DNA from: a virus | Length of the DNA stretch: 64,000 nt | Virus record (IMG/VR): IMGVR_UViG_3300048029_000212 | Location: 96,051 to 160,050 of that record | Direction: 5' to 3' (one strand) | Shown here: positions 13,101-63,829 of the stretch, one piece after another | Position numbering within the stretch: position 1 is the first letter of the stretch | Layout: the number at the start of each line of letters is the position of its first letter | Translations under genes and position numbers: made by a program | The notes under the pieces: model-generated | Database searches by the model: none | Seen by the model: the letters and a program-made list of their open reading frames with translations, nothing else | What the model was told of the DNA's origin: nothing

Positions 13101-16100
13101 ATAGTAAGTAATCAGGGCGCTGTATTTGTATATGAAATAGCGGACTTGACTATTCCTCCAGTTAGACTACATCCTAACATCACAAGCGAAGCTGACATGC
13201 AGTTTGGTTGGGATGTTACTGGTACCGATGAGTTCATTATTGTCGGTTGTCCGGGCGATGACTATACCGTACCTGAAGCATCTAATACCAATACGGGTTC
13301 TGTTTATCTATTTGACGTTAATAACTTAGGATTAAGTCCTACTGTACTAACCCCTACTCACTCTCAGATTGAGCTATATGGAAACTCAAACGATGCAGAC
13401 AATGACGATAACACTTACTTTGGTCGAAGAGTAGAAGTTATCGACAACATGTTAGTAGTCGGTGCTGATAACTACGGCGAAAGGGACGGTTTTACGGGCG
13501 AATATTCAGGCGGTCACACCGAGCAATATTCAAGTGGGTCATTACGCGGATATTATGGTGCCATATACACATATGACCTAACGAACCTTTTGAACAGTGG
13601 ATCTTCAATCTCTAATCTTAGTGCTATAAACTGGCATAACGATAATTACTACAACAAGTATTACGCTTCGGGAGAAAGTCCGAGTCGTGGATATGGTCAG
13701 TATGGTATTGCCATGAGCAGTACTCATATTTTCGTAGGTATGCCTTATGACGACTATGATCCTGATGGAGGAAAATACGATGTTGGACTCATATCAATAC
13801 ACCCAAGATCAAATGATTATGGAGTTAGTAGTGATTATAGGTTCATTAGAGCTCCCGATTGGTATGAACAAAATCAAAATTTTGGTTGGGACCTAGCGAC
13901 CGACGAAAACTACTTGTATGTTGGTGTTCCATACGATGATAATCCTTATGGCGTCAACGCAGGACAAGTTCTTGTTTATGAACTAGAAGGACTTTACGAT
14001 AACGCTACTCAGGCTGGATCATATGCTCCACCACCAGTGTTTACACTGAATGCACCAGATGCTTCGGCAGGTGATAACTTCGGTTATAAGATTTCTGTTA
14101 ACGGCGGTAAGTTAGCCGTTGCTGCTCCTTACGATGATGATCAAGGAACTAACTCTGGTGCTGTATACATTTATCAGACAAATCTGTTAACTGGTGTTCC
14201 AGTCAAGATCACTCCAAGCGATTTGGTAGATCAAGACACAACTACTACAGAACAGTCATTCGGATATAGAAGTTTAAGCTTGACACTGGCTTCTGGTGCA
14301 GTAGAGATCACAGAACACGTTCTACCGAACTCTGGTATCTCAACAGGTATGAACTACTTGATGCATAGAACCAATCAGTTAGAACAGTTGGCAAATGATG
14401 TTAACGTTAACGCTTACAATTATGCTAACAATATTTCTGTTGCACAGGAAGGATACGGCATAGGTATTGCAGACAACGCTGCGGCAATTGCTACAGAAAC
14501 GACTGCACGTGCTGATGGTGATGCAGCTCAACAAGTTGAGATCGATTCATTAACTACGATCACAACAGATCTAACATCACAATTGAGTGCAGAGATTTCT
14601 CGTTCAACGACCGAAGATACAATCTTAACTCAAAGAGTAGATATCCTTTCTAGCGCACTACAACCAGACTCAGACGGAGATATTAGAGTCGAAGGTTTGG
14701 CAACGTTTAGTGATGGAATCTCGGTTGGTACAAGTGGTGGTGCGATCGGACACGATCCATTAAGTGACGCGATTACTATCATGTCTGATCTAGACATGAA
14801 TGAGCATCAAGTCCTTAACATTGCAGAACCTACAGTTGATAAGGATGTTACTACTAAGTTGTATGTTGATACGCAAGTTTCCAACGAAGAAACTCGTGCG
14901 ACAACTGTGGAAACAGATCTACAGGCTCAGATTGACCACATCGTTGGTACATCACCAGAGACTCTAGACACGTTCCAAGAGATCGTCTCAACACTTCAGG
15001 GTTCAGATAGTGATCTACTAGCACTAATGACCTCTAACGCAACAGGTGTTGGCGGTTTGAATGCATCTCTAACTACAGAGACTGCAAACCGCGAAGCTGC
15101 AGATACTGTTCTACAATCTAACATTGACGCTGAAGAAGCATCACGCATTGCGGGTGATTCGGATCTACAATCGCAGATTGATTCGAACGACACAGACATC
15201 TCCAATTTGGATTCAGATGTCGGTGCAGTATCATCGTTGGCAACAACTGCAACAACTGTTGTTGGTGCGATCAACGAAGTTCACTCAGAACTAGATGCTG
15301 AAGTTATTCGTGCTGTTTCTGCAGAAAATGCAGAAGAGACACGTGCTCTAGCGGCAGAAGGTGTGCTACAGTCTAACATCAACACTGAGTCTTCATCTCG
15401 CATCGCGGGTGACGCAAGTCTACAGTCTCAGATTGACGGATTGTCTAACACACAGGTCGCTGATAAGGGTGGACTAGAAGTATCTCTAGCTACTGAGGTC
15501 GCTCGTGCTACTCTCGCAGAAGGTGCGCTACAAAGTGCAATTGATGCAGAAGAACTACGCGCAACAACTGCAGAAGGTGTAAATGCTGCCGCTGTCGTAA
15601 CTGAACAGTCTCGTGCAGAAGCAGTAGAAGCAGGTCTTGCTGCGGATATCGCGGTAGAAACTGCTCGTGCAACGGCTGCAGAAACTCAACTTGCAAATCA
15701 TCTAGGCGCAAACTTTACTGACGGATCTATCACAGTTGACGGTCTAGCGACATTCAACGGTGGTCTATACTTCGGTGACGGAACTGGTACTATCGGATTC
15801 AACGCTGACGTTGACAATCTGCAGGTACTTTCAAACCTAGACCTAATGGGCAACAGAATCATTAACTACCCAACTCCGGTAGATTCTGGTGACGTTACCA
15901 CTAAGGGATATGTTGATGCAACTACACAAGCAGTAAGTGATCGTGTTGACGCAATCCTACAAGGTGCTGGTGAATCACTAGACACTATTGTTGAGGTTGT
16001 TGCGGCATTTGAGAACGCGGATAGTGATATCCAGTCTCTGATCACATCTAACAGCACAAGCGTAACGGCTAACACTGACGCAATTAATGCAGAAGTGGCG

Positions 16101-19100
16101 GCACGTCAACAGGCAATCACAGATGAAGCATCTGCTCGCAGAAACGCTGACTCTGACTTGAGTGCTGGTTTGTCGAACGAAACATCTCGTGCTCTATCGG
16201 CAGAAGGTGTACTAACGTCTGATCTAGCTGCTGAAGTTGCCCGTGCAACATCTGCAGAAACAGGTCTTGCGTCAGACATTGCTGCTGAAACATCACGTGC
16301 AACAGCTGCTGAGGGTGTTAATGCTCAGGCAATTGCCGATGAGACAACACGTGCGACTACGGTCGAAGCGTCACTTGCTCAAGACATTGCTGATGAGTCA
16401 CTACGTGCACAAGGTGCGGAAGCGGTATTAACTTCTGACGTATCTGCAAACGCGACTGCGATTTCAGGTTTACAATCACAGGTTGCTGGTGTAAGCACAT
16501 CTTCTGGTTCATCTAACATTGAGATGAGTGCTGAAGTTGACATGTCTGGTAACAAGATTACTGATATGGCTGATCCAACTGCCGCACAAGACGCTGCAAC
16601 TAAGTCATACGTTGATGCAACTGTCGCGACAGAAGCAACTAGTCGTACAACAGAAGACACTTCACTGCAGTCTAACATTGACGCTGCAAATGCTCGTATC
16701 GACGCGATTCTAAATGGTTCTGTTGAATCACTAGACACCGTCGTTGAGGTTGTAAGTGCATTTGAAGGTGCGGATAGCGATATCCAAAACCTAATTACTG
16801 CGAACGCTTCAACAATTTCGCAGAATGCTGCTGCAATCGCAACTGAAGCAACTGATCGTGCGAACGCTGACTCAGATGAGGCTGCACTACGTGTTGCTGG
16901 TGACGCAGTACTAACTGCTGATCTTGCTGCTGAAGTTGCTCGTGCACAGACTGCAGAATCTGCAGAGACAAGTGCTCGTGTTGCTGCTGACTCTGACTTG
17001 CAGACACAGATTGACTTCATTAAGGAAAATACTGATCCAGCTGCATTGGATTCATTGACTGAACTAGTCTCTGCATTCCAAGACGCAGATAGTGACGTTA
17101 CCACAATGGTGGCCTCAAATGCAAGCGCAATTGCTGCAACGAACGCACGTACTGCAGGTATCAGTGTAGATTCCGACTCTAATGTCGCATTGTCAGTAGG
17201 CATTGAGATGGGTCAGAACAACATCAAGGATGTTAATGATGTTTACGCTAACCGTGCATTCATTGACACGATTGAATCGAATGACCTGAAAGTTCAAACA
17301 GGAACTGTTGATTTCGAAGGTTCTATAGTAAACTTCGGTTCATCAACAATCATTGGTGGTGGTTTCGGTAATGCTACTAAGGCAGAGATCGACCAACACT
17401 TGAATGTTTCTGCTGCGGATTCTGGTGAGTTCTTGAAGTGGAACGGAACGGACTACGAGTTCACTGATTACATTCAAGGTCGTATTGCTTCTAACCAAAT
17501 CGTAGTTGAAGGAACACTAAAGGTAGAACAGCCAGGATCAACTATTGATTGGCAAGATGGTCTAGTACACTTCGGTGGTTCACAAGTAATCGTTGACGAA
17601 CCAACTTCAGCAAATCTTGCTGCAAACAAGCGATATGTTGATGAAGCTGATAGTGATCTAAATGCACTACTTTCTACTGCGATTTCAAACGAGGAATCTC
17701 GTGCGACAACTGCAGAAGGTGTATTGACAACTAACTTGGCTAACGAGATCTCTCGTGCAACGTCTGCGGAAGCGACACTTGCATCTGACATCTCTGCGGA
17801 AGAGTCACGTGCTCTAGCGGCAGAAGCTGCAGAAGCAAGTACTCGTGCTGACGCTGATTCGGACCTACAGTCTGCGATCGATGCTGAAGTTGCTCGTGCA
17901 ACTGCGGCAGAAGCGGTTAACGCACAAGCGGTTGTTGACGAAGGTACAGCACGTACTACTGCAGATAATACTCTACAGTCTAACATCGACACAGTAAGTG
18001 GACGTGTTGACGCGATTCTAAATGGTTCTTCGGAGTCACTAGATACAATCGTAGAAGTTGTCGCTGCATTTGAGAACGCAGATTCTGATCTACAAACACT
18101 AATCTCATCTAACGCAGGATCACACACAGCGAATGCTGCTGCGATTACTGCAGAAGAGACACGTGCCCTAACTGCTGAAGGTGTACTACAAAGTGCAATC
18201 GACGCGGAAGAGACACGTGCGACTGGTGTTGAAACAGATCTACAATCTCAGATCACTTCTGAAGTTGCGGCACGTTCTGCTGCAGATCAGTCAATGAGAG
18301 AAGATCTAGACTCAGACATCGCTGCTGAAGCTGCACTACGTGTTGCTGGTGATGCGTCGTTACAGTCTGGACTAGATGTAGAAGTTGCCCGTGCAACTGC
18401 TGCGGAAGGTGTTCTACAGTCACTACTAGATTCAGAACAGTCTGCTCGTATCCTATCTGACCAAGGTCTACAGTCTGCAATCACTGCAGAAGAGAACGCA
18501 CGTATCGCGGCTGATGCAGTACTTCAGTCTGCAATTGATGCTGAAGAGTTAGCAAGAACATCTGCTGACAATGCACTTCAGGCGAACATCAATGCGGTAG
18601 ATGCGGCAGTAACTGCAATCACAAACGGTTCTCCAGAAACTCTGAACCAGTTGGTTGAAGTTGTCGCGGCATTTGAAGATGCTGACTCTGATCTACAGAC
18701 CGTAATCTCTAATCTAGGTGGTGACGCAAGTGCATTGACTGCACGTGTTTCAACTCTAGAAAGTGAGATGGACGCAACTGAACTTGCAACAACGTCTAAC
18801 GCAAACGCTATCTCTGCTGAGACAGTGGCGCGTGTTGCTGCGGTACAGGTGAATGCGGATGCGATTACTGCAGAATCAACTGCTCGTGCTGCTGCGATTA
18901 CCGCAGAACAGAACGCACGTGCGGCTGCAATCGTTGCATCTGAATCTGATCGTGATTCTGCTGACGCAGAACTACAATCTCAGATTGACGCATTGTCTGC
19001 GGAAGAGACTGCAGGTAAGAGTTCACTACAGTTCCAGTTAGGTCAAGAAGAAGATGCTCGCATCGCGGGTGATTCTGATCTGACTGATTCACTAGCTGCT

Positions 19101-19607
19101 GAAGTTGCCCGTGCGACTGCTGCAGAAAGTGCACTGTCAAGTGATATCTCTGCTGAAGAAAGTGCTCGTGTATCTGCAGACGCAAGTCTACAGTCTCAGA
19201 TTGACTTCATCGTATCTAACACTGACTCTGCATCACTAGATTCTCTAACAGAGATTGTTGCAGAATTCCAGTCAGTAGATGGAACGTTATCTGGTCTAAT
19301 CAGTAGTAATGGTTCACGCATCACTTCACTAGAAACAAATGTTGGAACTATCAATAGTTGGACAACAGACAACCTATCAGAAGGATCAATCAACAAGTAC
19401 TGGACAGAACAACGTACTAAGGATTGTCTATCTGGTGGTCTATGTATCGACTACAACTCAACAACTGGTGAGATTGCAATTGACGAAGTAGAAGCTGCTT
19501 CATCACTAACAGTTGCGGAATCGCATGACGCGAACGCACTGGGTGGACAAGCTCCTACATACTACCGTATCAACGTCTATGACGCTGCCGGTAACCTAGT
19601 CAACTAA
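4110..19607 (+). CDS. 5165-residue giant fibre protein with beta-propeller blocks and PA14-like insert
   Basis: A single uninterrupted frame of 5165 codons. The N-terminus (FRIQNGVDVKGELTVNDV) and an early shaft element (YTLGSPDRVWKDLYIG, about 4840-4880) are typical of T4-like marine phage fibre proteins. Most of the chain is Ala/Glu/Asp-rich heptad repeat broken by about 13 copies of a SPETLDT...EIVxAFxxADSD module. Four FG-GAP (integrin-alpha-like) propeller blocks lie at roughly residues 1107-1484, 1627-2067, 2284-2781 and 2924-3397; the third contains a PA14-like lectin segment at about 2541-2657. Shaft motifs of the form DAATKxYVD recur. The C-terminus (HDANALGGQAPTYY) matches a motif common at phage fibre ends. 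Its likely role is a long adhesive fibre that binds host surface glycans. Assignment to a particular T4 gene product is not possible. Confidence 0.8.
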   Translation: MNTNKKFRIQNGVDVKGELTVNDVVIIRADGTIVAGAIADAVSSLVDEGALTGSGSSIVDSDSQIFIDVNSNTVAIASETATRISDIASLQTQIDSLGVNSDTQAAVDSLQTQIDSILGASPETLDTLVEIVSAFEGADSDIQSLLAANSSQLTANSTQITSVANDLAVETTRRIAGDNALQNSLNAEIARAITADDLNAAAITAEAVARQADVASLQASQFTYNDSDGWAGNLIPSLDNEYTLGSPDRVWKDLYIGPGSLYINGTKILEDNSGTITMYADAGQNLSFGATGGGNIDLNAGDESVQLKSDLVMSVGETISTVGGEPTKFGGAVDMGTHKVTNVGVPVDASDAATKEYVDSLNADGTITGDKVFEDNVTIEGNLTVEGTTTTLDSQTLKVADNIIDLNSNVSTGAPVLNAGIRIMRGDEPAVQLRWNELDDRWEVYDGVTATPIAVTSTDAIAEGDNKLFFTVVRAREAVSQDIADAVAAEATARGAAIDAEIARATSAEQANAAAIETEKTAREDAVTAEAAARVAGDATVQAAVDAEQAARIAADLSEAQTRAAAVSDLQSQLNTVTGSDLSSIQSQLDAIVGTSPETLDTIQEVVAAFEGADSDLTGLITGNSSTIAAVNASLTQEVSERTFAVQAEATARENADDALQSSIDAEEASRISGDSDLTASLAAEVSAREAADTAESSARVGAISAEATARVAGDATVQAAVDAETARATAAEQANATAISAEETRALAAEALLQNKIDQVEAGGQAHPLFSTMGDLPDASANHGMFAHVHAEGAAYFAHGGQWVELAKSSDLANLDLSSIQSQIDAILGSSPENLDTLQEIVAAFQSADGDLQTLMTANSSAIGDVSSLDTSASTLVDAINELHTELSDTAGADAALQQEVDARIAADTSEATSRIAGDADLAADILDEKTQRIAQASIETTARMSSDSALQAQIDAEESARLAGDASLQTFINTQSQNLTDETTSRIGADGILQNQIDDIVADNAARTASGATVAELNAVEDALDAEVVRAQLAEQANASAVVTGDAALQAQLDAIIGTSPETLDTLQEIVSAYESADNSLQNLINTNTGTLAALQTTIGAENVPLITPDIGETITYEVEYAGRQFYAVADSYNVYVYDSARSNPRVPVATIYNGGNSVHIMDMNSEAVFVRWNSNAHIVYRYELSDLVLGITSSSKNYRPAEAGGQSVSAFAVSEDYIYVHETSGTDQIWRQPLSEGGTTGAVSTYTINGLNTYKMRVFGDKLYALRTSGTDTLWVWDIDATDGSLSNAHQLTSSDLNSDTIAWGSGELTGAFEASSTLIAVGAPNDDTQGINHGSVYLFNPDNLNEPHTKLYAPPEYASSNLQFGHSIALTDTRLIVGALDASSMSTTPSSNGLMFIYDSTNLILPPLVVESPDEGVSNFARSIHEESNRLLVRSASETGIYVYDLTNMDQDPINLIEPTNSTAGGTFGNRMAISPAATVTQSITDTIIPAAGLGNSINYLESKRQELRADLEANLAAIQSNDADIAAVAADVATNTANIATNAAAIVAVDADRTAFEASVNAERQTHRDAVQADIDQVNADRTAFENTVNASQAEFILDHDSDYTSFTSSVESAFATTNELQEEIRTRMGVGHVALPQDTTSITYDRQIPDQYYVVRRGDDETYVYTSANWSSTGQNVGVSTRIQFPDEYTSNNATDQMVVTRDYAIFLVDKANVSGEHSFLVYDLETINVSSTPIAVVDCEGFDRNLEYDGGTKLMVTKYQDHSDDSLGGVRVYDIPSLASGSAIYVESMVDDLPSSLNIPGPDVTDGDLWYGNHAAWNSTHIFVALGGQRKVVVYNKSDLSFVTTLSDTVTNGSDFGRVSVRASDTMVAVTSRNGQYNWSDGTGKVAVFDATDLSIPPVIITDNNMVRHYSSSDRPDNHYYYAFNSQDQIAVHDDYLFLGNTGHFYYGNNGRVYVIPKAIALQGDSAMPSNGTNSAGLLSWKDTTWGHSDNGSDARYAHEISVHGDLFVVNAHDYRQHSFNRTNLTMIHDINDLSLAPVKIEEIDDGTTSYASTVISPRATITESYTETFNPNDSLTSAVNYLNAKKEELLTAVGALTGSASFVEDVQAIEDNIDFKLAAQDQRFDSDKAEQVAIYAQANLDQSAVYAAANAEQASIYDSANAAHVAYFEQYTDGETAAREAADTTLQTNIDTEESARIAGDSNLQSQIDAILGASPDHLDTMVEIVSAFENADSDISNLLSTNATNNAVNATAISALESSVEAIASATEVDLDAKVPFVFVKKPEANTVLAYNGNNLNLSPIELTPNRESGETVDADMGYGVDVAVSSTKVVVAASNGEFFVYDASDLFSAPTIINSGVTSGDFGSSIVMTDDVIAISSVSDSSYGTVKLYDASSYALLSTIEPSVGSAGMGYGHSMAIRGTTLVVSSPKQQMTMESVVSVGFLYVYDITNPASSSLVATLRGPNSDVGIIGGSVTMNDRWIATSLTDKAVVWDRLNLSESPKVFSTGGLESGLTQGGLWGAKRSGQGGWSSGIDMPLSNASLYTNQINLGDEGDYYSYQFVGYFKAPETANFTFRINSDNQGLMWIGENALMNTSNRGTAEAIIYQTNVGTDTATVSMVEGEMYPILLSFTENVAGAWFQFTWQGGAQTSYTYDLTQHFYYYADEANFSPAHIPVNSIEPIILEDNKMYIGSYNGVSIWNDISTVNTTDYTDWKQAVAADSQVVAPNNEDQFGVAIGLMSGFLFVGSNSQSISVFEVANLDNPPNVKLIDSVSRNLESVPAELAPPVAEGLLTNADSTIGAINEVHNELDAEVVRALGIEAGLRTDVDANAATINTNIVDIANETSARVAGDSVLQAQIDNIVGTSPETLDTIQEVVSAFQNADNDIQTLISNNSTHLLSLENEISGGAGLTNLPNVMTEISRTVYQDQYMIVSGNKNSGSVYVFDANNPTEQPVKLTHPDGITGGYFGHAAAVVREYLVISDPYDDTIVSNQGAVFVYEIADLTIPPVRLHPNITSEADMQFGWDVTGTDEFIIVGCPGDDYTVPEASNTNTGSVYLFDVNNLGLSPTVLTPTHSQIELYGNSNDADNDDNTYFGRRVEVIDNMLVVGADNYGERDGFTGEYSGGHTEQYSSGSLRGYYGAIYTYDLTNLLNSGSSISNLSAINWHNDNYYNKYYASGESPSRGYGQYGIAMSSTHIFVGMPYDDYDPDGGKYDVGLISIHPRSNDYGVSSDYRFIRAPDWYEQNQNFGWDLATDENYLYVGVPYDDNPYGVNAGQVLVYELEGLYDNATQAGSYAPPPVFTLNAPDASAGDNFGYKISVNGGKLAVAAPYDDDQGTNSGAVYIYQTNLLTGVPVKITPSDLVDQDTTTTEQSFGYRSLSLTLASGAVEITEHVLPNSGISTGMNYLMHRTNQLEQLANDVNVNAYNYANNISVAQEGYGIGIADNAAAIATETTARADGDAAQQVEIDSLTTITTDLTSQLSAEISRSTTEDTILTQRVDILSSALQPDSDGDIRVEGLATFSDGISVGTSGGAIGHDPLSDAITIMSDLDMNEHQVLNIAEPTVDKDVTTKLYVDTQVSNEETRATTVETDLQAQIDHIVGTSPETLDTFQEIVSTLQGSDSDLLALMTSNATGVGGLNASLTTETANREAADTVLQSNIDAEEASRIAGDSDLQSQIDSNDTDISNLDSDVGAVSSLATTATTVVGAINEVHSELDAEVIRAVSAENAEETRALAAEGVLQSNINTESSSRIAGDASLQSQIDGLSNTQVADKGGLEVSLATEVARATLAEGALQSAIDAEELRATTAEGVNAAAVVTEQSRAEAVEAGLAADIAVETARATAAETQLANHLGANFTDGSITVDGLATFNGGLYFGDGTGTIGFNADVDNLQVLSNLDLMGNRIINYPTPVDSGDVTTKGYVDATTQAVSDRVDAILQGAGESLDTIVEVVAAFENADSDIQSLITSNSTSVTANTDAINAEVAARQQAITDEASARRNADSDLSAGLSNETSRALSAEGVLTSDLAAEVARATSAETGLASDIAAETSRATAAEGVNAQAIADETTRATTVEASLAQDIADESLRAQGAEAVLTSDVSANATAISGLQSQVAGVSTSSGSSNIEMSAEVDMSGNKITDMADPTAAQDAATKSYVDATVATEATSRTTEDTSLQSNIDAANARIDAILNGSVESLDTVVEVVSAFEGADSDIQNLITANASTISQNAAAIATEATDRANADSDEAALRVAGDAVLTADLAAEVARAQTAESAETSARVAADSDLQTQIDFIKENTDPAALDSLTELVSAFQDADSDVTTMVASNASAIAATNARTAGISVDSDSNVALSVGIEMGQNNIKDVNDVYANRAFIDTIESNDLKVQTGTVDFEGSIVNFGSSTIIGGGFGNATKAEIDQHLNVSAADSGEFLKWNGTDYEFTDYIQGRIASNQIVVEGTLKVEQPGSTIDWQDGLVHFGGSQVIVDEPTSANLAANKRYVDEADSDLNALLSTAISNEESRATTAEGVLTTNLANEISRATSAEATLASDISAEESRALAAEAAEASTRADADSDLQSAIDAEVARATAAEAVNAQAVVDEGTARTTADNTLQSNIDTVSGRVDAILNGSSESLDTIVEVVAAFENADSDLQTLISSNAGSHTANAAAITAEETRALTAEGVLQSAIDAEETRATGVETDLQSQITSEVAARSAADQSMREDLDSDIAAEAALRVAGDASLQSGLDVEVARATAAEGVLQSLLDSEQSARILSDQGLQSAITAEENARIAADAVLQSAIDAEELARTSADNALQANINAVDAAVTAITNGSPETLNQLVEVVAAFEDADSDLQTVISNLGGDASALTARVSTLESEMDATELATTSNANAISAETVARVAAVQVNADAITAESTARAAAITAEQNARAAAIVASESDRDSADAELQSQIDALSAEETAGKSSLQFQLGQEEDARIAGDSDLTDSLAAEVARATAAESALSSDISAEESARVSADASLQSQIDFIVSNTDSASLDSLTEIVAEFQSVDGTLSGLISSNGSRITSLETNVGTINSWTTDNLSEGSINKYWTEQRTKDCLSGGLCIDYNSTTGEIAIDEVEAASSLTVAESHDANALGGQAPTYYRINVYDAAGNLVN

Positions 19608-39915: not shown

Positions 39916-41636
39916 TTAGATTTGAAACATTGCGTTGGAAGAACTTTCTTTCGACGGGTAACTATTTTAACGAAATTAATTTCCTTGACTGCTCGACCAA
40001 TCTCATTGTCGGTGAGAACGGTGCGGGTAAGTCCACAATGCTAGACGCACTGTCGTTTGCGTTGTTCGGTAAGGCACATCGTAAGATTACTAAGAACCAG
40101 TTAATCAACACAATCAACAATAAAGATTGTTTGTCGGAAGTGACCTTTACTGTCAACGGTATTGGATACCGTATCGTGCGTGGTATTAAACCCGCGAAGT
40201 TTGAAATCTGGAAAGATGGTACTATGATCAACCAGAGTTCTCACTCACGAGAGTATCAAGAGATTCTTGAGAAGAACATCTTACAAATGTCTCACAAGAG
40301 TTTCCACCAAATTGTTGTTCTCGGCTCGTCGTCGTTTATCCCGTTCATGCAACTCAACTCAACCTCTCGGCGTGACGTGATAGAAGACCTTCTTGATATT
40401 AACATATTTTCTAAAATGAATGTGATACTCAAGGAGAAAACCTCTCTCCTCAAAGGCGAGCTCGAGAACAACAACCATTCTATAGAAGTTGTAAAGACCA
40501 AGATCAACGCACAGAAGAAATACATTCGTGATCTGACTGCTATCAATACGCAACAACGTAAAGAGAAAGAGTCAGAGATTCGGGGTCTTAATGACGATAT
40601 CGCTACACTCAACGAAGCGACGGCAGAACTGTCAGAGACCGTCAATAATTTGTTACCTTCTGTGCAAGATGAACTGTGCAAAATCCGTACCAATAAACAA
40701 AAACTAGAAAAGTATCGTACACAGTTTGATACTCAGGTAAAATCTGTGGTTAAAGACGCAAAGTTCTTTGATCAACATGAACACTGCCCGACCTGTGATC
40801 AAGACATTGGTGATGAGTTGCGACAATCTAAAAAGTCCGCTGCGACTGATCGCGCCAAAGAACTCAAGGGTTTAATGTCAGAGGCTGATAAACAACTACT
40901 AGAGTACCAAGAAAACATTGAGAGACTAGAGTCTGAGATGTCGGAATTAGCCCACAAGCAGAATGTTATGAATAACAATATGCAACTGGTTTCACGATTG
41001 ACTCAAAATGTCCAAAAGATTCAGTCTGACCTTTCTCAGATGTCTAACAGTGATGGAGACATGGGACAAGCAAACGCAGACCTTACTGAACTAGATTCTG
41101 AGTTGCACGATCTCACAGACAACAAATTTAAACTGACCGAGCGTTCATCTTATAACCGCATTGCCAGTGAGTTGTTGCGTGATACGGGTATTAAGACTAA
41201 AATCATTCGTCAGTATATTCCGGTCATCAACGAACTGACTAACAAGTACTTGCAAATCCTAGACTTCTTTGTTCACTTTGAGTTGGATGATAGTTTCACT
41301 GAGACTATCCGGTCTCGTTACCGCGACACCTTCTCTTACGATTCTTTCTCAGAAGGGGAGAAGCAACGTATTGACCTATCTCTTTTGTTCACTTGGCGAC
41401 AGATTGCCAAGATGAAAAATTCTGTGTCGACTAACCTGTTGATCCTTGATGAGACTTTTGATTCGTCTCTCGATGGGGAGGGTGTCGACAACCTTATGAA
41501 GATTATTGACACATTAAAAGAAGACACCAATGTGTTTGTAATCTCACACAAGACTGAGCTTGAAGATGCCCACTTCGAACGAAAGTTGTCGTTCGTAAAG
41601 GATAAAAATTTCAGTCGTATGAGAGAGACCACTTGA
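39912..41636 (+). CDS. 46: Recombination ATPase subunit gp46 (Rad50/SbcC-like)
   Basis: A 574-residue ABC-type SMC-like ATPase. Walker A is GENGAGKS (34-41). A long coiled coil is split by a zinc-hook CPTC motif near residue 292. The ABC signature FSEGEKQRIDLSL and Walker B LLILDETFDSS lie near the C-terminus. With gp47 it forms the end-resection complex. Its TGA stop (41634-41636) lies inside the -35 box of the gene 45 promoter. Confidence 0.95.
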   Translation: MIRFETLRWKNFLSTGNYFNEINFLDCSTNLIVGENGAGKSTMLDALSFALFGKAHRKITKNQLINTINNKDCLSEVTFTVNGIGYRIVRGIKPAKFEIWKDGTMINQSSHSREYQEILEKNILQMSHKSFHQIVVLGSSSFIPFMQLNSTSRRDVIEDLLDINIFSKMNVILKEKTSLLKGELENNNHSIEVVKTKINAQKKYIRDLTAINTQQRKEKESEIRGLNDDIATLNEATAELSETVNNLLPSVQDELCKIRTNKQKLEKYRTQFDTQVKSVVKDAKFFDQHEHCPTCDQDIGDELRQSKKSAATDRAKELKGLMSEADKQLLEYQENIERLESEMSELAHKQNVMNNNMQLVSRLTQNVQKIQSDLSQMSNSDGDMGQANADLTELDSELHDLTDNKFKLTERSSYNRIASELLRDTGIKTKIIRQYIPVINELTNKYLQILDFFVHFELDDSFTETIRSRYRDTFSYDSFSEGEKQRIDLSLLFTWRQIAKMKNSVSTNLLILDETFDSSLDGEGVDNLMKIIDTLKEDTNVFVISHKTELEDAHFERKLSFVKDKNFSRMRETT

Positions 41637-41662
41637 CAAGTGGGTATAGAATGTTATATAAT
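41633..41662 (+). promoter_or_regulatory. Sigma70 promoter for gene 45
   Basis: TTGACA at 41633-41638, an 18-bp spacer and TATAAT at 41657-41662. The stop codon of gene 46 is the TGA of the -35 box. The predicted start near 41669 gives a 23-nt leader containing GAGGAAAC before gene 45. Confidence 0.82.
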
Positions 41663-41691: not shown

Positions 41692-42369
41692 ATGGAACTA
41701 TCTAGTCGCACGGTCGAGATCTTGCGAAACTTCTCGACTATCAATCCAAACATTGTTGTCAATGGCGGAAACGTCTTGAAGACCATGTCTATCGCAAAGA
41801 ACATCGTATCTCGCGCTGAGATCGAAGAGGACTTTCCAAACACATTTGGTATCTATGATTTGTCTGAGTTCTTGTCTGTGTTGTCTCTGGTAGACAATCC
41901 ATCAATTACTTTTGGCGAACACTTCTGTACCGTTTCGGACGGCAGTGGCCTTTCTTCGGTTAAGTACTTCTACTCTGATCCAGAGATGCTTTCTGCACCC
42001 AAGAAAGATATCGTGATGCCTGAGTGTGAGGTCAAATTTATACTCACAAACGAGACACTAAGTAAGATCAAACGTGCGTCGTCTGCTCTTGGATATGACA
42101 ACATATCAATCCGTCCCAATGGGAACTCTATTGAAGTGTCTGTGATCGATACCAACGATTCCACATCAAACTCATACTCTATCTTGGTTGAAGGTCAGTT
42201 CCCTGTGGACGCAGACTTCAACTTTGTTATGGGTGTGGGTAACATGAAGTTGTTGGGAGAAGACTATGAGGTGTCGGTCTCAACTAAGTTGATCTCACAC
42301 TTCCGATCAATTAATTCTAACACGCAATATTTCATTGCACTTGAAAAGTCATCAACATACGGAGCTTAA
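41692..42369 (+). CDS. 45: Sliding clamp gp45
   Basis: A 225-residue trimeric sliding clamp (T4: 228). The opening (MELSSRTVEILRNFSTINPNIVVNGGNVLKTMS) and the later IYDLSEFLSVLSLVDNPSITF segment are typical of the family. It tethers polymerase gp43 to DNA and, in T4, activates late promoters through gp55 and gp33. It has its own sigma70 promoter. A small gene follows immediately. Confidence 0.94.
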   Translation: MELSSRTVEILRNFSTINPNIVVNGGNVLKTMSIAKNIVSRAEIEEDFPNTFGIYDLSEFLSVLSLVDNPSITFGEHFCTVSDGSGLSSVKYFYSDPEMLSAPKKDIVMPECEVKFILTNETLSKIKRASSALGYDNISIRPNGNSIEVSVIDTNDSTSNSYSILVEGQFPVDADFNFVMGVGNMKLLGEDYEVSVSTKLISHFRSINSNTQYFIALEKSSTYGA

Positions 42370-42370
42370 C

Positions 42371-42574
42371 ATGACTGAAGAACAAACAACATTTAACGAA
42401 CTTGCAAATCGCGTGTCACGTTCCTGTGTCGCGGTTGTAGATACCGTCGTCACTCGTGGTGGTTTCAAAGGTGAAGAACTCACTACTATCGGACAGTTGC
42501 GTGACCAAGCAATTCAGGTTGTGGCTCTTTACGAGACTCTCACGCAACAACAGGCAGAAGAATCTGCCAAGTAA
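42371..42574 (+). CDS. Small helical protein of unknown function
   Basis: A 67-residue protein (MTEEQTTFNELANRVSRSCVAVVDTVVTRGGFKGEELTTIG...). The ATG at 42371 has GGAG at 42361-42364 and follows the gene 45 stop by one base, so it shares that operon. It is predicted to be two helices with a Gly-rich turn. Similar small proteins sit beside gene 45 in some marine T4-like phages, but I cannot assign a function. Confidence 0.65.
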   Translation: MTEEQTTFNELANRVSRSCVAVVDTVVTRGGFKGEELTTIGQLRDQAIQVVALYETLTQQQAEESAK

Positions 42575-42581
42575 CCAGTTT

Positions 42582-42653
42582 GGGTTCGTGGGTGACCTGT
42601 TGCCTGCGAATGATTTTTTTATAATGTTTATATACCCACGAACCCCTTTTTTT
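42582..42653 (+). terminator. Long-loop hairpin with T tract
   Basis: A perfect 12-bp stem, GGGTTCGTGGGT at 42582-42593 and ACCCACGAACCC at 42634-42645, encloses a 40-nt AT-rich loop and is followed by C and seven T. It resembles an intrinsic terminator with an unusually large loop. The last T runs straight into the ATG at 42654. Confidence 0.6.
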
Positions 42654-42892
42654 ATGAAACTATATGATCCCCTGATTGCAAAAGAAACGTCTATCCACGT
42701 TGCTCTTGGGACGGTCATCAATTACCCACTTAACATCTTCTACACCTGGCTAGCGGTTGTTAAGTGGGGAATTACGGATCCTTTAACTCTGTCCACAATT
42801 CTTACTGTTGGAATATCGTTTGTAGCGTTCACTCGCATATACATAGTAAGGTCCCTTACAGAAAGAAGTAAGGAAAAACTGAAACAGAACAT

Positions 42893-42902
<10 letters not shown>
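42654..42902 (+). CDS. Small two-helix membrane protein (DUF7220-like)
   Basis: An 82-residue protein with two hydrophobic segments (about 17-38 and 47-65), and a basic end (RSLTERSKEKLKQ). The pattern HVALGTVINYPLNIFYTWLA, then a second helix ending FVAFTRIYIVRS, matches small inner-membrane proteins common in marine and enterobacterial phages. The open frame extends upstream to 42456, but that part overlaps the previous gene and the hairpin, so ATG 42654 is used (ATG 42624 is possible). No ribosome site is obvious. Its stop lies within the first ten bases of the tRNA-Thr. Confidence 0.55.
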
Positions 42903-42968
<66 letters not shown>

Positions 42969-42982
42969 TCTTTGGAGATTCC

Positions 42983-43576
42983 GTGAATATCACTACAAAA
43001 ATGTCAGATGTGTTTGCAAGATCAATGACCTCTTTCTTTAGGTTTTTTGCAGACACGTTCTTCCGGCGAAACTATGGCAAACGCGCTCTCATTTTAGAGA
43101 CAGTTGCTGGAGTGCCGGGCATGGTTGGCGGAATGTTAACCCACTTGTATAGTCTACGCAGACTACAGAAGGGTAACGGCACCAAGATCCAAGAACTGTT
43201 AGACGAAGCCACTAATGAACGCAAGCACTTAATGTTCTTTATGGAAATAGTTCATCCTTCTGTTCTAGAGAGGGTTCTCATTATTTTTGTTCAGTTTATC
43301 TTCTGGCATTATTATCTTTTGATGTATATGTTGTTTCCCCGTACTGCGCATCGCATGACTGGGTACTTTGAAGAAGAGGCTGTAAATAGTTACACCAGTT
43401 ACTTGGCACTAATATCTGCAGGGGAGATTGAGGATGTTCCTGCCCCACAAATTGCCATTGACTATTACGTAGATCTTGAAGAGGGTGCAATGCTCTCTGA
43501 TATGATTGTTTGTGTCCGTCGTGATGAAATGCACCACGCCAAAGTCAATCACGCTTATGCGGATGAACGCATATAA
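42983..43576 (+). CDS. aox: Alternative oxidase (di-iron quinol oxidase)
   Basis: A 197-residue protein with the complete alternative oxidase/PTOX signature. It shows LETVAGVPGMVGGMLTHLYSL (first Glu ligand at 39), the NERKHL motif with Glu79 and His82, the EEEAVNSYTSYL motif near 130-140 and the DEMHH motif with Glu182 and His185. All expected di-iron ligand motifs are present. The enzyme oxidises quinol with oxygen without pumping protons, on the inner face of the membrane. The start is GTG at 42983 with TTGGAG upstream; ATG at 43001 is an alternative. Length fits compact bacterial forms. It probably came from a bacterial host and would bypass cytochrome oxidase during infection. Confidence 0.9.
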   Translation: MNITTKMSDVFARSMTSFFRFFADTFFRRNYGKRALILETVAGVPGMVGGMLTHLYSLRRLQKGNGTKIQELLDEATNERKHLMFFMEIVHPSVLERVLIIFVQFIFWHYYLLMYMLFPRTAHRMTGYFEEEAVNSYTSYLALISAGEIEDVPAPQIAIDYYVDLEEGAMLSDMIVCVRRDEMHHAKVNHAYADERI

Positions 43577-43628: not shown

Positions 43629-43689
43629 CGCATAAATAAATTATGCGAGAGGTTTACTTGAAGGGAGAAATGTAGTATAATACTCCCTA
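43629..43689 (+). promoter_or_regulatory. Promoter and operator-like region before gene 44
   Basis: A -10 box TATAAT at 43676-43681 pairs with TTTACT at 43653-43658 (17-bp spacer). The -10 is inside nested inverted repeats: AGTAT-A-ATACT, flanked by AGGGAG (43662-43667) and CTCCCT (43684-43689). Upstream, CGCATAA/TTATGCG (43629-43647) forms a perfect 7-bp hairpin that also contains CATAAATA, a one-mismatch late box. The symmetry suggests an operator or RNA hairpin. Confidence 0.5.
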
Positions 43690-43716: not shown

Positions 43717-44661
43717 ATGAGTAATGAATTTCTCTGGGTTGAAAAATACCGTCCCACCGCTGTGTCGCAGACTATTCTGCCTGCGGAGTTAAAAACAACT
43801 TTTCAAAACATCGTTAAAGGCGGAGAACTGCCTAATATGATGTTTGCAGGGAGTGCAGGTACGGGTAAAACTACTGTTGCCAAAGCTATCTGTGATGAGT
43901 TGGATCTTGACTACATCGTAATCAACGGATCAGAAGAAGGCAATATTGACACCCTACGCGGGAAGATCAAGCAGTTTGCCTCTTCGGTGTCCCTGTCTGG
44001 TGGGTACAAGGTTGTTATCCTAGATGAGGCGGACTATCTCAATCCACAGTCCACACAGCCCGCGTTGCGTGGGTTTATTGAAGAGTTCTCAAAGAACTGT
44101 CGTTTCATTATGACGTGCAACTTTGAGAATCGTATTATTGAACCTCTCCACTCGCGATGTTCCAAGTATTCGTTTAACTTTAGTAAGACTGATCTTCCGG
44201 AGCTCTGTGGCGACTTCATGTCACGGGTTGTTGATATTCTAAAATCTGAAAACGTTGAGTATGAGAAATCGGTCGTTGCGCAGATCATTATGAAACATGC
44301 TCCAGACTGGCGACGTGTTCTTAATGAATGTCAGCGCGGAACAATATCAGGAACACTCAACACCGTTCCCGATAAACAGACCGATATCTCCGACACATAC
44401 ACGCAGTTGTTTACTTCTTTACGCGACAAAAACTTTAAGAAGATGCGATCTTGGGTTGTCAACAATCTTGATCTAGAACCCACGGCGATATTTCGTGGTT
44501 TATATGATAGGATGTATGATCATGTTGACCCGAATAGTATACCTCAGTTGGTTCTCATTCTGGCTGACTATCAGTACAAGAATGCGTTTGTTGCGGACCA
44601 TGAGTTGAATTTAGTTGCTTGTCTCACTGAATGTATGGCAAACGTAGAGATCAAAGCATGA
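43717..44661 (+). CDS. 44: Clamp loader large subunit gp44
   Basis: A 314-residue AAA+ ATPase (T4: 319). Walker A is GSAGTGKT at 45-52, Walker B VVILDEADYL is near 107-116, and the arginine-finger SRC motif lies in LHSRCSKY near 147. Four copies join one gp62 to open gp45 and load it on primed DNA. GAGG precedes the ATG. Its stop overlaps the gene 62 ATG (ATGA). Confidence 0.95.
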   Translation: MSNEFLWVEKYRPTAVSQTILPAELKTTFQNIVKGGELPNMMFAGSAGTGKTTVAKAICDELDLDYIVINGSEEGNIDTLRGKIKQFASSVSLSGGYKVVILDEADYLNPQSTQPALRGFIEEFSKNCRFIMTCNFENRIIEPLHSRCSKYSFNFSKTDLPELCGDFMSRVVDILKSENVEYEKSVVAQIIMKHAPDWRRVLNECQRGTISGTLNTVPDKQTDISDTYTQLFTSLRDKNFKKMRSWVVNNLDLEPTAIFRGLYDRMYDHVDPNSIPQLVLILADYQYKNAFVADHELNLVACLTECMANVEIKA

Positions 44662-52198: not shown

Positions 52199-53335
52199 AT
52201 GATTCTATCTAAGCAAGACGCAATCCATGCGGCGAATGTCTTTTCTGATTTCTTTGGCAGTTTCGATCGCATCGACGAATACCAACGTTCTATCAAAATG
52301 GATCGTATGGCAACCTTTCCAGCATCTCTGCCTGGCATGGGCCCAGAGACGGATTTGTTTGACGACTTCTCTATTCATCCCAACGACATGGAATTCTCAA
52401 TATACGAGTGTCGTCAGGATCACTTCATGACATATATGGAGATCACGACATCCGCGCCAGTCGAGTCGTCGATCCCAGGCAAACAACTTCTCTACATCGT
52501 CAAAGAGAAGAACACTGGTCAAGTATTTGGGATGATCCGTTTTGGGTCACCTACGATTAATTCGCGTCCACGTAACGAATGGTTGGGTGCGCCTCTTGAC
52601 ACCATGAACCCAGATGTTATGAAAAGATTTAACAAGTCTGCCATAATGGGTTTTAATATTGTTCCTGTCCAGCCCGTAGGATATAACTACCTTGGTGGTA
52701 AACTGTTGGCGGGCATTTGTTGTTCGCATCTAGTGCGTCGTGCGTTAAACAAAAAGTACGATGCAAACATATGTCTTTTCGAAACAACTAGTTTGTATGG
52801 TTCCTCTAAGTCATCATCGATGTATGATGGTATGCGGCCGTTCTTACGTCACAACGGATTGACAGACAGTAACTTTGCACCGTTGATCAACGATACCAAG
52901 TTCCGAACACTGAACGACTGGTTCAAGGAACGCAACGAGGGTGAGTATCTGGTTCCCGCCGATGCGTCATCTCGTAAACTGAAGACACAGACAAAGATGG
53001 CTTCAATCATCAAGGCCTCACTCAAAGGTGTGGATGATGGTGCGTATCAAAAGTTCTGTCAAACCTTCCTTGATGCGAAGGGTCTGACAGAACGTAAGCG
53101 TTCGTATTATAGCACATATGGTCATGAGGCTCAGTCGGTTAAAGATTACATGAATTTAAAAACTGATGAACTCAAACCAGCAGAAAACTTTGACAGATTC
53201 GAAGTTGAGAATATCATTGAGTGGTGGAAGAACAAGGCGTCTAAACGTTATGAGACCCTTAAGTCCGAGGGTAGACTACGCACGATAGTTGAGACTTGGA
53301 ATACTAATCCCGAAGATATCGACATCATAAGATGA
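52199..53335 (+). CDS. DruA-like (DUF4338-like) protein
   Basis: A 378-residue protein. The central ~130 residues follow the pattern of DUF4338/DruA: GQVFGMIRFGSP, then RPRNEWLGAP, then NKSAIMGFNIVPVQPVGYNYLGGKLL, a helix with LVRRALNKKY, and ICLFETTSLYGSSKSSSMYDGM. In DruA proteins these correspond to the RDEWIGW, IxNxxRFLILP, NLxSxLL and LLETFVD elements. DruA defines Druantia anti-phage systems in bacteria, with unknown chemistry. The terminal ~130 residues are basic and helical. It overlaps the next gene by four bases (ATGA). The relation is by pattern only and needs a profile search. Confidence 0.55.
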   Translation: MILSKQDAIHAANVFSDFFGSFDRIDEYQRSIKMDRMATFPASLPGMGPETDLFDDFSIHPNDMEFSIYECRQDHFMTYMEITTSAPVESSIPGKQLLYIVKEKNTGQVFGMIRFGSPTINSRPRNEWLGAPLDTMNPDVMKRFNKSAIMGFNIVPVQPVGYNYLGGKLLAGICCSHLVRRALNKKYDANICLFETTSLYGSSKSSSMYDGMRPFLRHNGLTDSNFAPLINDTKFRTLNDWFKERNEGEYLVPADASSRKLKTQTKMASIIKASLKGVDDGAYQKFCQTFLDAKGLTERKRSYYSTYGHEAQSVKDYMNLKTDELKPAENFDRFEVENIIEWWKNKASKRYETLKSEGRLRTIVETWNTNPEDIDIIR

Positions 53336-59229: not shown

Positions 59230-59896
59230 AGTAGTAATTCGTAATAAAGAAATGTTAGATGTGTTGAATAGCTTCTCTAATGAGATGCTTTCTAAACCCT
59301 CTCTCAATGACAAAAAGTATTGGACTTATCGTGAAGAGAAAGATATTGACTTGGGGTCTTATTATACCTCATATGAATATCTGTTAGAATGTCTTTCACG
59401 AGACCGTCTAGTTGGCCCGCCCGATAGGTATTTCGCACAACCTATAGCAAAAATGGTGCGTGAAGATAAAGAAACTTGGGGAGACTTCATGCAGAGGGTC
59501 AAGTACGATTTCGCATCGGAACTTGGCGCACACACTTCTGCATTACTCTCTTACTACCCGCCAGGCGGTTTTGTGGGATGGCATACTAACTATGATGCCA
59601 ATGCATACCAAGTCTTGTTCACGTGGTCAGAGACCGGAGAAGGTTTCTTTGAATACTACGACAGACAGAAAGACAAAATCATCAAGATCGATGATGTCCC
59701 TGGCTGGCAATGTCGTCACTATTATTTCGGTTCAGAACAAGAAGAAGACCTACACTGTTGGCATGCTGCATACACAGAGTGCCAACGCATCACACTTGCA
59801 TATAAGTTTGTGAATAACGGCAGTGTAAATAGTCCTGAAGACGCACAGGCACGTGCTATGCGTGACATGTTGATTGAAGATATAGAGACTCCGTAA
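59222..59896 (+). CDS. 2OG-Fe(II) oxygenase-like protein, copy B
   Basis: A 224-residue paralogue of the protein at 34954. The shared core is YYPPGGFVGWHTNYDANAYQV, TWSETGEGFFEY, PGWQCRHYYF and a distal WHAAYTECQRITLAY. It has more of a metal site than copy A: His in WHTNYD is followed by Asn and then Asp. The canonical His-x-Asp is still absent, so iron binding must be tested. It lies one base before iscU. Target unknown. Confidence 0.55.
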   Translation: MTEVVIRNKEMLDVLNSFSNEMLSKPSLNDKKYWTYREEKDIDLGSYYTSYEYLLECLSRDRLVGPPDRYFAQPIAKMVREDKETWGDFMQRVKYDFASELGAHTSALLSYYPPGGFVGWHTNYDANAYQVLFTWSETGEGFFEYYDRQKDKIIKIDDVPGWQCRHYYFGSEQEEDLHCWHAAYTECQRITLAYKFVNNGSVNSPEDAQARAMRDMLIEDIETP

Positions 59897-60270
59897 TGTA
59901 TTCAGATAAAGTTTTAGATCACTACGAAAACCCACGCAATGTGGGTAAGATGGACAAGGAAGACGACAACGTAGGAACTGGCATGGTCGGTGCACCCGCG
60001 TGTGGTGACGTTATGCAATTACAGATCCTTGTCGGTGATGATGGAATCATTGAAGATGCGAAATTTAAAACTTATGGTTGTGGTAGTGCTATTGCTTCTA
60101 GTTCTCTACTCACCGAATGGGTCAAAGGTAAAAATATCGAAGACGCAGGGAATATCCGTAATACAGACATCGCCAAAGAACTCGCACTCCCACCCGTAAA
60201 AATCCATTGCAGTGTACTCGCAGAGGATGCGATCAAAGCTGCTATCAAAGACTACAAAGAGAAGAATTAA
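59896..60270 (+). CDS. iscU: Iron-sulfur cluster scaffold IscU
   Basis: A 124-residue, apparently complete IscU (E. coli: 128). It carries the three cluster-ligand cysteines in APACGDVM (C36), TYGCGSAIASSSL (C62) and KIHCSVLAEDAIKAAI (C105), the Asp after the first Cys, and the LPPVK chaperone-binding motif at 98-102. It is very close to gammaproteobacterial IscU from memory, including VGAPACGDVM and TEWVKGK. IscS, HscA and HscB are not encoded here, so it would use host partners. It lies in an operon with the oxygenase-like gene and is followed by an overlapping ATG. It was probably acquired from a host. Confidence 0.95.
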   Translation: MYSDKVLDHYENPRNVGKMDKEDDNVGTGMVGAPACGDVMQLQILVGDDGIIEDAKFKTYGCGSAIASSSLLTEWVKGKNIEDAGNIRNTDIAKELALPPVKIHCSVLAEDAIKAAIKDYKEKN

Positions 60271-61951: not shown

Positions 61952-62188
61952 ATGTTACCTGAACTTGCAATTGTTTTTTCTCTAAATACTACTGCTCCCG
62001 AAGATTTTGTTCCGTTGGAGACGGACACACAAAGAATCGTAAGGGAGTTATTTGAGAAGTCGTACGAAGAAAAACGATCGGTTCTCAGAACAAGAAAGGT
62101 AATCGTTCCCATAGAGGACCGTACAGATCTTGTCGTGAGATTTAAAAGAAAAAAGTTCTTTACGCTTGTCTACTACTTCGATTTATGA
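61952..62188 (+). CDS. Small protein of unknown function after hydrolase
   Basis: A 78-residue protein (MLPELAIVFSLNTTAPEDFVPLETDTQRIVRELFEKSYEEKRSVL...). GGAGG at 61941-61945 is a strong ribosome site, and the gene follows the hydrolase stop by one base. A hydrophobic start precedes an amphipathic helix and a basic end (RFKRKKFF). It could be a spanin- or lysis-linked protein, but no lipobox is visible. It shares its end with the promoter at 62166. Confidence 0.5.
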   Translation: MLPELAIVFSLNTTAPEDFVPLETDTQRIVRELFEKSYEEKRSVLRTRKVIVPIEDRTDLVVRFKRKKFFTLVYYFDL

Positions 62189-62194
62189 TATAAT
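62166..62194 (+). promoter_or_regulatory. Sigma70-like promoter before 62220
   Basis: TTGTCT at 62166-62171, a 17-bp spacer and TATAAT at 62189-62194. The -35 is imperfect and lies inside the preceding coding sequence. Confidence 0.5.
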
Positions 62195-62219
62195 AACAAC
62201 ATCCCAAGAGGTAACGAAA

Positions 62220-62471
62220 GTGGAAAAATTAGCATATCCATCCGCATATTTTAATGATGGTAAGCTGAGTACTCAAAATGTCTACGTTGCGTTTGATCCT
62301 ATAGGAACAATCATCGGCGTATACCAGTGCATTGAGACGGCTATCGACAAGTGCGCAGGAGAGGTGTCAAATCACTTCTGTGAACAAGTGCATGTCGAAG
62401 TCTCCGACGTTGCTATTTTTGTTGAAGGGGAAAAGGGTAAAGTTACTATCCTCATTGAGGATTTAAAGTAA
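62220..62471 (+). CDS. Small protein of unknown function before tRNA-Glu
   Basis: An 83-residue protein. The start chosen is GTG at 62220 with AAGAGGT at 62206-62212; the frame extends upstream to a TTG at 62166, which lies inside the promoter's -35. It is beta-rich (NVYVAFDPIGTIIGVYQCIETAIDKCAGEVS) with two or three Cys and no signal peptide. It lies directly before tRNA-Glu. Function unknown. Confidence 0.55.
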   Translation: MEKLAYPSAYFNDGKLSTQNVYVAFDPIGTIIGVYQCIETAIDKCAGEVSNHFCEQVHVEVSDVAIFVEGEKGKVTILIEDLK

Positions 62472-62492: not shown

Positions 62493-62568
62493 GTCCGGTT
62501 CGTCTAGTGGTCTAGGACACCGCCCTTTCACGGCGGGAACAGGGGTTCGAACCCCCTACTGGATACCA
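62493..62568 (+). tRNA. tRNA-Glu (anticodon TTC)
   Basis: A 76-nt cloverleaf. Acceptor GTCCGGT/ACTGGAT includes two G-T pairs. The anticodon stem CCGCC/GGCGG encloses loop CTTTCAC with anticodon TTC (codons GAA/GAG). T arm AGGGG/CCCCT encloses TTCGAAC. CCA is encoded. It ends 19 nt before aceA. GAA is a heavily used codon in the fibre and core genes here. Confidence 0.95.
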
Positions 62569-62587: not shown

Positions 62588-63829
62588 ATGAAAAAGAGAA
62601 ACTACTCGCCCGAAGACGTAACTCGTTTGCAGGGCACAGTTCAAATCGACCACACCCTCGCGCAAATGGGCGCATCAAAACTTCGAAAGTTATTTGAAGA
62701 AAACGAGTACATCAACACGTTTGGAGCATATAATGGACAACAAGCAGTACAACACGTTAAAGCAGGACTCAAAGCGATATATCTTTCGGGATGGCAAGTG
62801 GCTGCGTCGGCCAACTCTCATGGCGAAGTTTATCCAGATCAGTCGTTATATGCTGTTGATAGCGTTCCTAACGTTGTGCGTAGCATCAATAATGCATTTA
62901 GACGCCAAGACCAAATCGAATATCTGGAAACTGGAAACGGGTTTGAATTTGCCCCTATTATTGCCGATGCTGAAGCAGGATTCGGAGGAGTTCTAAATGC
63001 GTATGAACTTGCAAGAAATCTTATCGAAGCAGGTGCTGCCGCTGTTCACTTTGAAGACCAAGTTGCTGCCGAGAAGAAGTGCGGACACTTGGGAGGAAAG
63101 GTTCTCATACCGACTAGTCAAGCTATACGCAACCTTAATGCCGCTCGCCTTGCTAGTGACGTTGCTGGCACTGATACAGTCGTTATTGCTCGTACCGATG
63201 CTGAGTCTGCTAAGTTAATCTCTAGCAACATCTCAGACATCGACAAACCATTCATCAAGAGAGTCTCGCAGGGTACTGCGGGATCTATTCAATGTCGCAC
63301 ACAAGAAGGGTTCTATATGCTCGAAGAGGGCAGAGGACTAGAGTTCGGTTGTGTGCGTGGTCAGGCATACGCAGAATACGCAGACCTCGTTTGGTGTGAA
63401 ACATCGACACCCGACTTGAAGGATGCGAAGCGTTTCGCTGACGCAGTCAAAGGTGCAGTCCCCGACGCAATGTTGGCATACAACTGTTCACCGTCATTCA
63501 ACTGGCGCAAGTCAATTCCAGGCGATCAAGAACTAAAAGATTTTCAACGTGAGTTGGGTAAGATGGGATTCAAGTTCCAGTTTATCACACTTGCAGGATT
63601 CCACCAGACTAACTACTCTGTCTTTGATTTCGCAAACCGATACAAAGACGAAGGTATGTACGCATACTCGTTGTTACAAGAAGCAGAGTTTGCCGCAGAG
63701 TCACGTGGATACACAGGTGCGAAGCACCAGAGAGAAGTGGGTGTCGGTTACTTCGATGCCATCACCACTACATTGGGGTCTAGTTCAACTGCCGCGATGT
63801 CAGGATCAACTGAAGAGGACCAGTTCTAA
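62588..63829 (+). CDS. aceA: Isocitrate lyase
   Basis: A 413-residue, apparently full-length isocitrate lyase (E. coli: 434). The signature KKCGHLGG (163-170) includes the catalytic Cys165. Other conserved elements are YLSGWQVAASAN, DADAEAGFGG-type IIADAEAGFGGVLNAYEL, VHFEDQ, LVWCETSTPDL, AYNCSPSFNW and the end TAAMSGSTEEDQF, which matches the family C-terminus that closes the active site. It splits isocitrate into glyoxylate and succinate, the first step of the glyoxylate shunt. Malate synthase is not in this window. The ATG has AGGA upstream and lies 19 nt after tRNA-Glu. It was probably acquired from a host. Confidence 0.95.
   Translation: MKKRNYSPEDVTRLQGTVQIDHTLAQMGASKLRKLFEENEYINTFGAYNGQQAVQHVKAGLKAIYLSGWQVAASANSHGEVYPDQSLYAVDSVPNVVRSINNAFRRQDQIEYLETGNGFEFAPIIADAEAGFGGVLNAYELARNLIEAGAAAVHFEDQVAAEKKCGHLGGKVLIPTSQAIRNLNAARLASDVAGTDTVVIARTDAESAKLISSNISDIDKPFIKRVSQGTAGSIQCRTQEGFYMLEEGRGLEFGCVRGQAYAEYADLVWCETSTPDLKDAKRFADAVKGAVPDAMLAYNCSPSFNWRKSIPGDQELKDFQRELGKMGFKFQFITLAGFHQTNYSVFDFANRYKDEGMYAYSLLQEAEFAAESRGYTGAKHQREVGVGYFDAITTTLGSSSTAAMSGSTEEDQF

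Follow-up and report, generated by a model that had tools for sequence, protein, structure and literature searches.

An alternative oxidase gene of T4-like phages and its linkage to genes for succinate production and oxidation

Viral control of host energy metabolism has so far been known mainly from cyanophages and photosynthesis. T4-like cyanophages carry a di-iron quinol oxidase, PTOX, together with petE, psbA/psbD and zwf/gnd, that is, near electron carrier and carbon-flux genes, and PTOX is among the genes absent from the non-cyanophage genomes with which they were compared (PMC3037559). Viral isocitrate lyase has also been reported: an aceBA operon accompanies T4-like structural genes in TARA_ERS478052_N000008 (PMC5332604), and aceA/aceB and sdh genes occur in viromes (PMC4053976), with no mention of alternative oxidase in either report. 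Our survey of the open-access literature found no earlier report of an alternative oxidase (AOX) in a non-cyanobacterial phage. AOX is an enzyme which burns respiratory electrons with O2 without making a proton gradient.

Here we analyse a window of 64,000 bases (bases 96051-160050 of the 160,050-base IMG/VR record IMGVR_UViG_3300048029_000212) which carries an AOX gene (Table 1). Like the cyanophage PTOX set, the gene encodes a di-iron quinol oxidase of a T4-like phage with electron carrier and carbon-flux genes nearby in its kin, but it belongs to a different oxidase subfamily, has respiratory partners, is not accompanied by photosynthesis genes, and has a different presumed host. Viral isocitrate lyase being already known, what is new here is its genomic linkage to AOX and to the succinate dehydrogenase subunit SdhB, a carriage of metabolic genes by phages that is respiratory and not photosynthetic. 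The presence of AOX beside succinate-making and succinate-oxidising genes in many related phages suggests that these viruses rewire host respiration. If this is true, a widespread phage AOX tied to the formation and oxidation of succinate would mean that viral control reaches the respiration of marine heterotrophs as well, and infected cells could respire carbon without an equivalent ATP yield, which bears on the bioenergetics of infected cells and on oceanic carbon loss.

Table 1. Features of the window and of the remainder of the record. Positions are those of the window unless stated otherwise.
Feature	Position	Strand	Basis or remark
Sigma-70-type promoter match, 12/12, 5' of gp45	41633..41662	+	consensus scan only
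gp45 sliding clamp, left border of slot	41692..42369	+	PHROG 223, E 2.5e-70
Small membrane-type ORF 5' of tRNA	42456..42902	+	conserved beside tRNA with or without AOX; no confident family
tRNA-Thr (TGT), directly 5' of AOX	42893..42968	+	ARAGORN
Alternative oxidase (AOX)	42983..43576	+	GTG start, 197 aa; Pfam, di-iron ligands, fold match
Sigma-70-type promoter match 5' of gp44	43653..43681	+	consensus scan only
gp44 clamp loader, right border of slot	43717..44661	+	PHROG 168, E 5.4e-115
IscU Fe-S cluster scaffold	59896..60270	+	TIGR01999, 226.7 bits against a cut-off of 192.4
Two small ORFs (61952-62185, 62166-62468) at the C48C1 sdhB site	61952..62471	+	synteny
tRNA-Glu (TTC), directly 5' of isocitrate lyase	62493..62568	+	ARAGORN
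Isocitrate lyase, 413 aa, KKCGH motif	62588..63829	+	Pfam ICL, E 4.8e-94; NCBIfam equivalog
Small c-type cytochrome	267-578 of record, outside window		
Peroxiredoxin	1590-2183 of record, outside window		
Di-haem CCP_MauG-type peroxidase	8068-9498 of record (L091), outside window		two CXXCH motifs

Identity and phylogeny of the phage oxidase

The AOX ORF matches a single Pfam family, PF01786, with 228.2 bits against a cut-off of 22.7 (E 1.2e-67), and its sequence matches trypanosome AOX (E ~5e-37), relative to which the N terminus is shorter, the match in the trypanosome protein beginning near residue 75-104. The di-iron ligand motifs listed in an earlier note on this DNA (Glu39, NERKHL, EEEA and DEMHH) are all present: E39 lies in LETVAG, E79 and H82 in NERKHL, E130 in FEEEAV, and E182 and H185 in DEMHH. 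Also kept is Y137, which corresponds to the catalytic Tyr of trypanosome AOX, and all seven residues are invariant in a 12-sequence alignment of diverse phage copies. The four motifs were found in 117 of 118 viral copies, the exception (in L229) being a broken second copy; the middle Glu of the EEEA pattern is no ligand and was thus not required in this count, the strict pattern missing ~40 viral copies. An AlphaFold2 model (pLDDT 82.4, pTM 0.79) has its best PDB matches in the AOX of Trypanosoma brucei (E 2.5e-12, TM 0.89, 42% identity). The gene hence encodes, as the earlier note held, a complete alternative oxidase, predicted to be a quinol:O2 oxidase. In sequence, in its six di-iron ligands and catalytic Tyr, and in predicted fold it matches trypanosome AOX and the AOX of marine Gammaproteobacteria; unlike these, it is encoded by a T4-like phage, and its activity is a predicted one. 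Di-iron hydroxylases acting on another substrate, such as COQ7, belong to the same superfamily of four-helix proteins, but the fold match falls to TM 0.37 for COQ7 and AOX is the only Pfam family matched, which makes a COQ7-like function very improbable.

Codon comparison of 36 distinct T4-like copies yielded a median dN/dS of 0.077 (88 usable pairs). Such strong purifying selection indicates that the function of the protein is maintained.

The phage carries the T4-like core genes gp45, gp44, gp62, gp46/47, regA and gp23. Its closest annotated relative is C48C1 (OQ984149), a complete genome of 156,191 bases whose record names no host and which is the sole AOX match among 50,697 phage records. 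Searches of the whole 160,050-base record and of C48C1 with psbA, psbD, petE, petF, hli, CP12, talC, gnd, zwf and PTOX returned no photosynthesis genes beyond chance, apart from a weak similarity of PTOX to AOX, while the gp17 and gp18 controls matched strongly; the Photo_RC HMM was found in 0 of 27 records, with a positive Synechococcus control. These results agree with the description in the earlier note of a T4-like phage lacking photosynthesis genes. Bacterial contamination as the source of the AOX contigs was considered and rejected, T4-like core genes lying beside AOX in most of them and the C48C1 genome being complete.

The phylogenetic comparison proposed in the same note was carried out as a maximum-likelihood tree of 74 sequences, including 34 representatives of phage AOX. 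Cyanophage and cyanobacterial PTOX split off with support of 100/100, and all 34 phage sequences fall into one set (100/96) together with the AOX of Halieaceae, of one Porticoccaceae genome and of one further gammaproteobacterium. The well-supported branches of the tree require a minimum of two changes between the AOX of phages and that of bacteria. The best full-length Halieaceae matches are 62-64% identical to phage AOX. The gene is present in 27 of 140 Halieaceae genomes versus 10 of 369 sampled Gammaproteobacteria. A cyanophage PTOX-like gene and a cyanobacterial host might be suspected, given that C48C1 is filed under Kyanoviridae and that 99 records of cyanophages contain PTOX. However, in addition to its separate position in the tree, the PTOX of S-SM2 is just 23-25% identical to phage AOX, the PHROG plastoquinol terminal oxidase matches the ORF only weakly (E 0.003), the genomic context is not photosynthetic, and the affinities of both AOX and SdhB are gammaproteobacterial. 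We therefore reject membership in PTOX, the chance of which appears close to nil; placement inside cyanophage PTOX with a cyanobacterial host, named in the earlier note as one of two outcomes that would speak against its view, did not occur.

An optional gene between gp45 and gp44

The AOX gene occupies a defined slot. In most close relatives, the small membrane ORF, the true start of which is probably internal (near 42621-42654), and tRNA-Thr are kept between gp45 and gp44; the tRNA is also found in relatives devoid of AOX and thus marks the insertion slot. Among contigs with gp44 at least 78% identical, AOX is present in the slot in 19 out of 31 and missing in the remaining 12 of this clade, and it is found in none of 38 more distant contigs. 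The shortest AOX-free sites are ~600 bases shorter than the occupied ones, which indicates that AOX is a clean, optional single-gene insert. As such, it might have been picked up passively from a host and serve no purpose in the phage, but strong purifying selection across many phage lineages, the invariance of the ligands and the presence of the gene in several contexts leave this hardly credible.

The promoter match preceding gp45 is a possible start of a transcript spanning gp45, the small ORF, the tRNA and AOX; gp44, preceded by a match of its own, may be transcribed without the need for read-through from AOX. By consensus matching only, the predicted promoters would fit an AOX transcript shared with replication genes. 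The slot between tRNA-Thr and gp44 is an apparent hotspot of metabolic genes. Its other cargo in relatives, judged by eye, includes an apparent S-adenosylmethionine synthetase (L419, L426 and L433) and peroxiredoxin-like and oxygenase-like genes (L434).

Linkage to succinate metabolism and a proposed pathway

The window phage also encodes an isocitrate lyase of the AceA type, which exceeds two curated cut-offs (623.6 against 562 bits for the NCBIfam equivalog, and 503.6 against 275.9 bits) and is predicted to cleave isocitrate. C48C1 has the same gene order, with identities to the window phage of 86% for AOX, 95% for isocitrate lyase and 90% for IscU, and its complete genome carries all three genes as well as SdhB; its annotation calls AOX, SdhB and isocitrate lyase just hypothetical proteins. 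In C48C1, SdhB lies 5' of isocitrate lyase (CDS0052-[SdhB]-CDS0054-ICL), between the counterparts of two small ORFs of the window, whereas no SdhB was found in the window phage genome, including this equivalent site. The SdhB of another relative, L082, exceeds the cut-offs of PRK05950 (364.9 against 228) and TIGR00384 (275.9 against 88) and is 77% identical to that of C48C1. The phage SdhBs represent several captures within Gammaproteobacteria.

Scans of IMG/VR detected AOX in at least 129 viral contigs, isocitrate lyase in 156 and SdhB relatives in 34. 'Phage' records of Salmonella, Escherichia, Acinetobacter, Listeria and similar bacteria with isocitrate lyase, SdhB or IscU were set aside, as the largest of them belong to bacterial strains or consist of multiple contigs, with annotation that reads as chromosome. 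Besides the record studied here, 20 contigs have isocitrate lyase on the same strand as AOX and no more than 3 kb away from it, either directly 5', or 5' with cytochrome c in between, or 3' beyond peroxiredoxin. In four contigs SdhB is within 3 kb of AOX, and in two of these the gap is just 23 and 29 bp, respectively. Cytochrome c precedes AOX by 9-116 bases in four contigs, and peroxiredoxin follows it at a distance of 76-82 bp in seven. It should be noted that related contigs are not independent and that the flanks examined favour short distances, and we claim no formal probability for these counts. The arrangements of AOX with isocitrate lyase or SdhB differ, which argues for repeated assembly. 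Large phage contigs with AOX and isocitrate lyase or SdhB are G000, G005, G007, G012, G013, G016, G018, G024 and G025. The large phage records L187, L204 and L215 (155-262 kb) carry SdhB, and in L204 (200.7 kb) AOX starts 23 bases after it. Several phages have isocitrate lyase but no AOX, or have SdhB but neither of the other two; the parts thus also act alone. On the genome of the window phage itself, ~19 kb separate AOX from isocitrate lyase and sdhB is lacking, so that the link to succinate rests on the relatives.

The best explanation for this recurrence is a phage respiratory cassette that would lead from isocitrate through succinate and quinol to AOX and O2. Isocitrate lyase yields succinate and glyoxylate, succinate dehydrogenase passes the electrons of succinate to ubiquinone, and AOX uses O2 to oxidise ubiquinol, with no protons being pumped. 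What we observe are the enzyme identities, an intact active site in AOX, selection on the gene and the physical linkage; flux, host and benefit we infer as follows. The phage isocitrate lyase would split isocitrate and bypass those steps of the TCA cycle in which CO2 is released. Succinate dehydrogenase would then oxidise the succinate and reduce ubiquinone, with SdhB provided by some of the relatives and the Fe-S scaffold IscU by the window phage, presumably in assembly with host subunits; SdhB and IscU may in this way renew a labile Fe-S subunit, as phage PsbA renews D1. Reoxidation of ubiquinol by AOX would keep the flux from being throttled by high proton-motive force, high ATP/ADP or the decay of host bc1 and terminal oxidases. 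Finally, the phage cytochrome c, di-haem peroxidase and peroxiredoxin could limit peroxide. Cytochrome c, a neighbour of AOX in some contigs, is not known to feed this enzyme, which counts against the proposal.

The main competing explanation is that AOX is a redox safety valve, preventing over-reduction of quinone and formation of superoxide under infection with no need for a succinate pathway. Such a role of AOX is known in other organisms, the phage genome encodes both a peroxiredoxin and the CCP_MauG di-haem peroxidase, and the seven contigs with peroxiredoxin directly 3' of AOX are in line with it. It nevertheless leaves the repeated linkage to isocitrate lyase and SdhB unexplained, and we regard it as unlikely. 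The earlier note, which proposed that AOX would keep quinol oxidation going when host terminal oxidases fail, was right about a complete AOX that is not PTOX in a phage lacking photosynthesis genes, but the gene does not stand alone: isocitrate lyase in the same genome, and isocitrate lyase, SdhB, cytochrome c or peroxiredoxin beside AOX in relatives, point to a succinate/quinol module and not to a general valve alone. A membrane di-iron oxidase could also act by consuming O2 or by countering a host defence based on respiratory arrest (for example, loss of membrane potential), with no support of catabolism. The linkage seen is, however, to carbon and redox genes, and the ribonucleotide reductase annotated in C48C1, if of the usual class Ia, needs O2; we consider this alternative quite improbable.

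We thus favour, with a probability of roughly 0.6, a functional quinol:O2 oxidase which works with phage redox enzymes to keep carbon and electrons flowing during infection of an aerobic heterotroph, which is most likely one of the marine Gammaproteobacteria. A broader proposal, which we put forward tentatively and hold to be possible but short of probable, is that T4-like phages of heterotrophs arrived independently at a respiratory equivalent of the photosynthesis cassette of cyanophages, namely, a proton-pump-free respiration of succinate (isocitrate lyase, succinate dehydrogenase with phage SdhB and IscU, ubiquinone and AOX) that would decouple carbon flux from ATP demand.

Host affinity and the phage genome

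The phage probably infects a marine gammaproteobacterium, of uncertain family. Naming a host from gene identity is indirect: AOX and SdhB are both closest to Halieaceae, whereas isocitrate lyase does not point there, as an AceA-type enzyme like that of the phage was found in 0 of 140 Halieaceae genomes, which have just a distant long form. Thus, either the phage gene has a source outside this family or the host is a different one; in a wider sample of the class, the best bacterial match to the phage isocitrate lyase is 63%.

The ends of the record (L091:1-774 against the last ~425 bases of the window) match at ~91% identity, and the cytochrome c gene is present in the head copy and missing from the tail copy. 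The genome is probably circularly complete, its assembly combining variants of the strain with and without this gene. The CCP_MauG protein has a lipoprotein-like start and is unusual in a phage. The same phage encodes a carbamoyltransferase and a radical SAM/SPASM protein (L092:18248-19750 and L093:1387-2370), and the window encodes a protein with a Druantia DruA-like match (52199-53335; PF14236, E 1.3e-9). A single ORF of 5,165 aa, very large for a T4-like phage, extends over positions 4110-19607; the tail genes of C48C1 include a 10-kb ORF.
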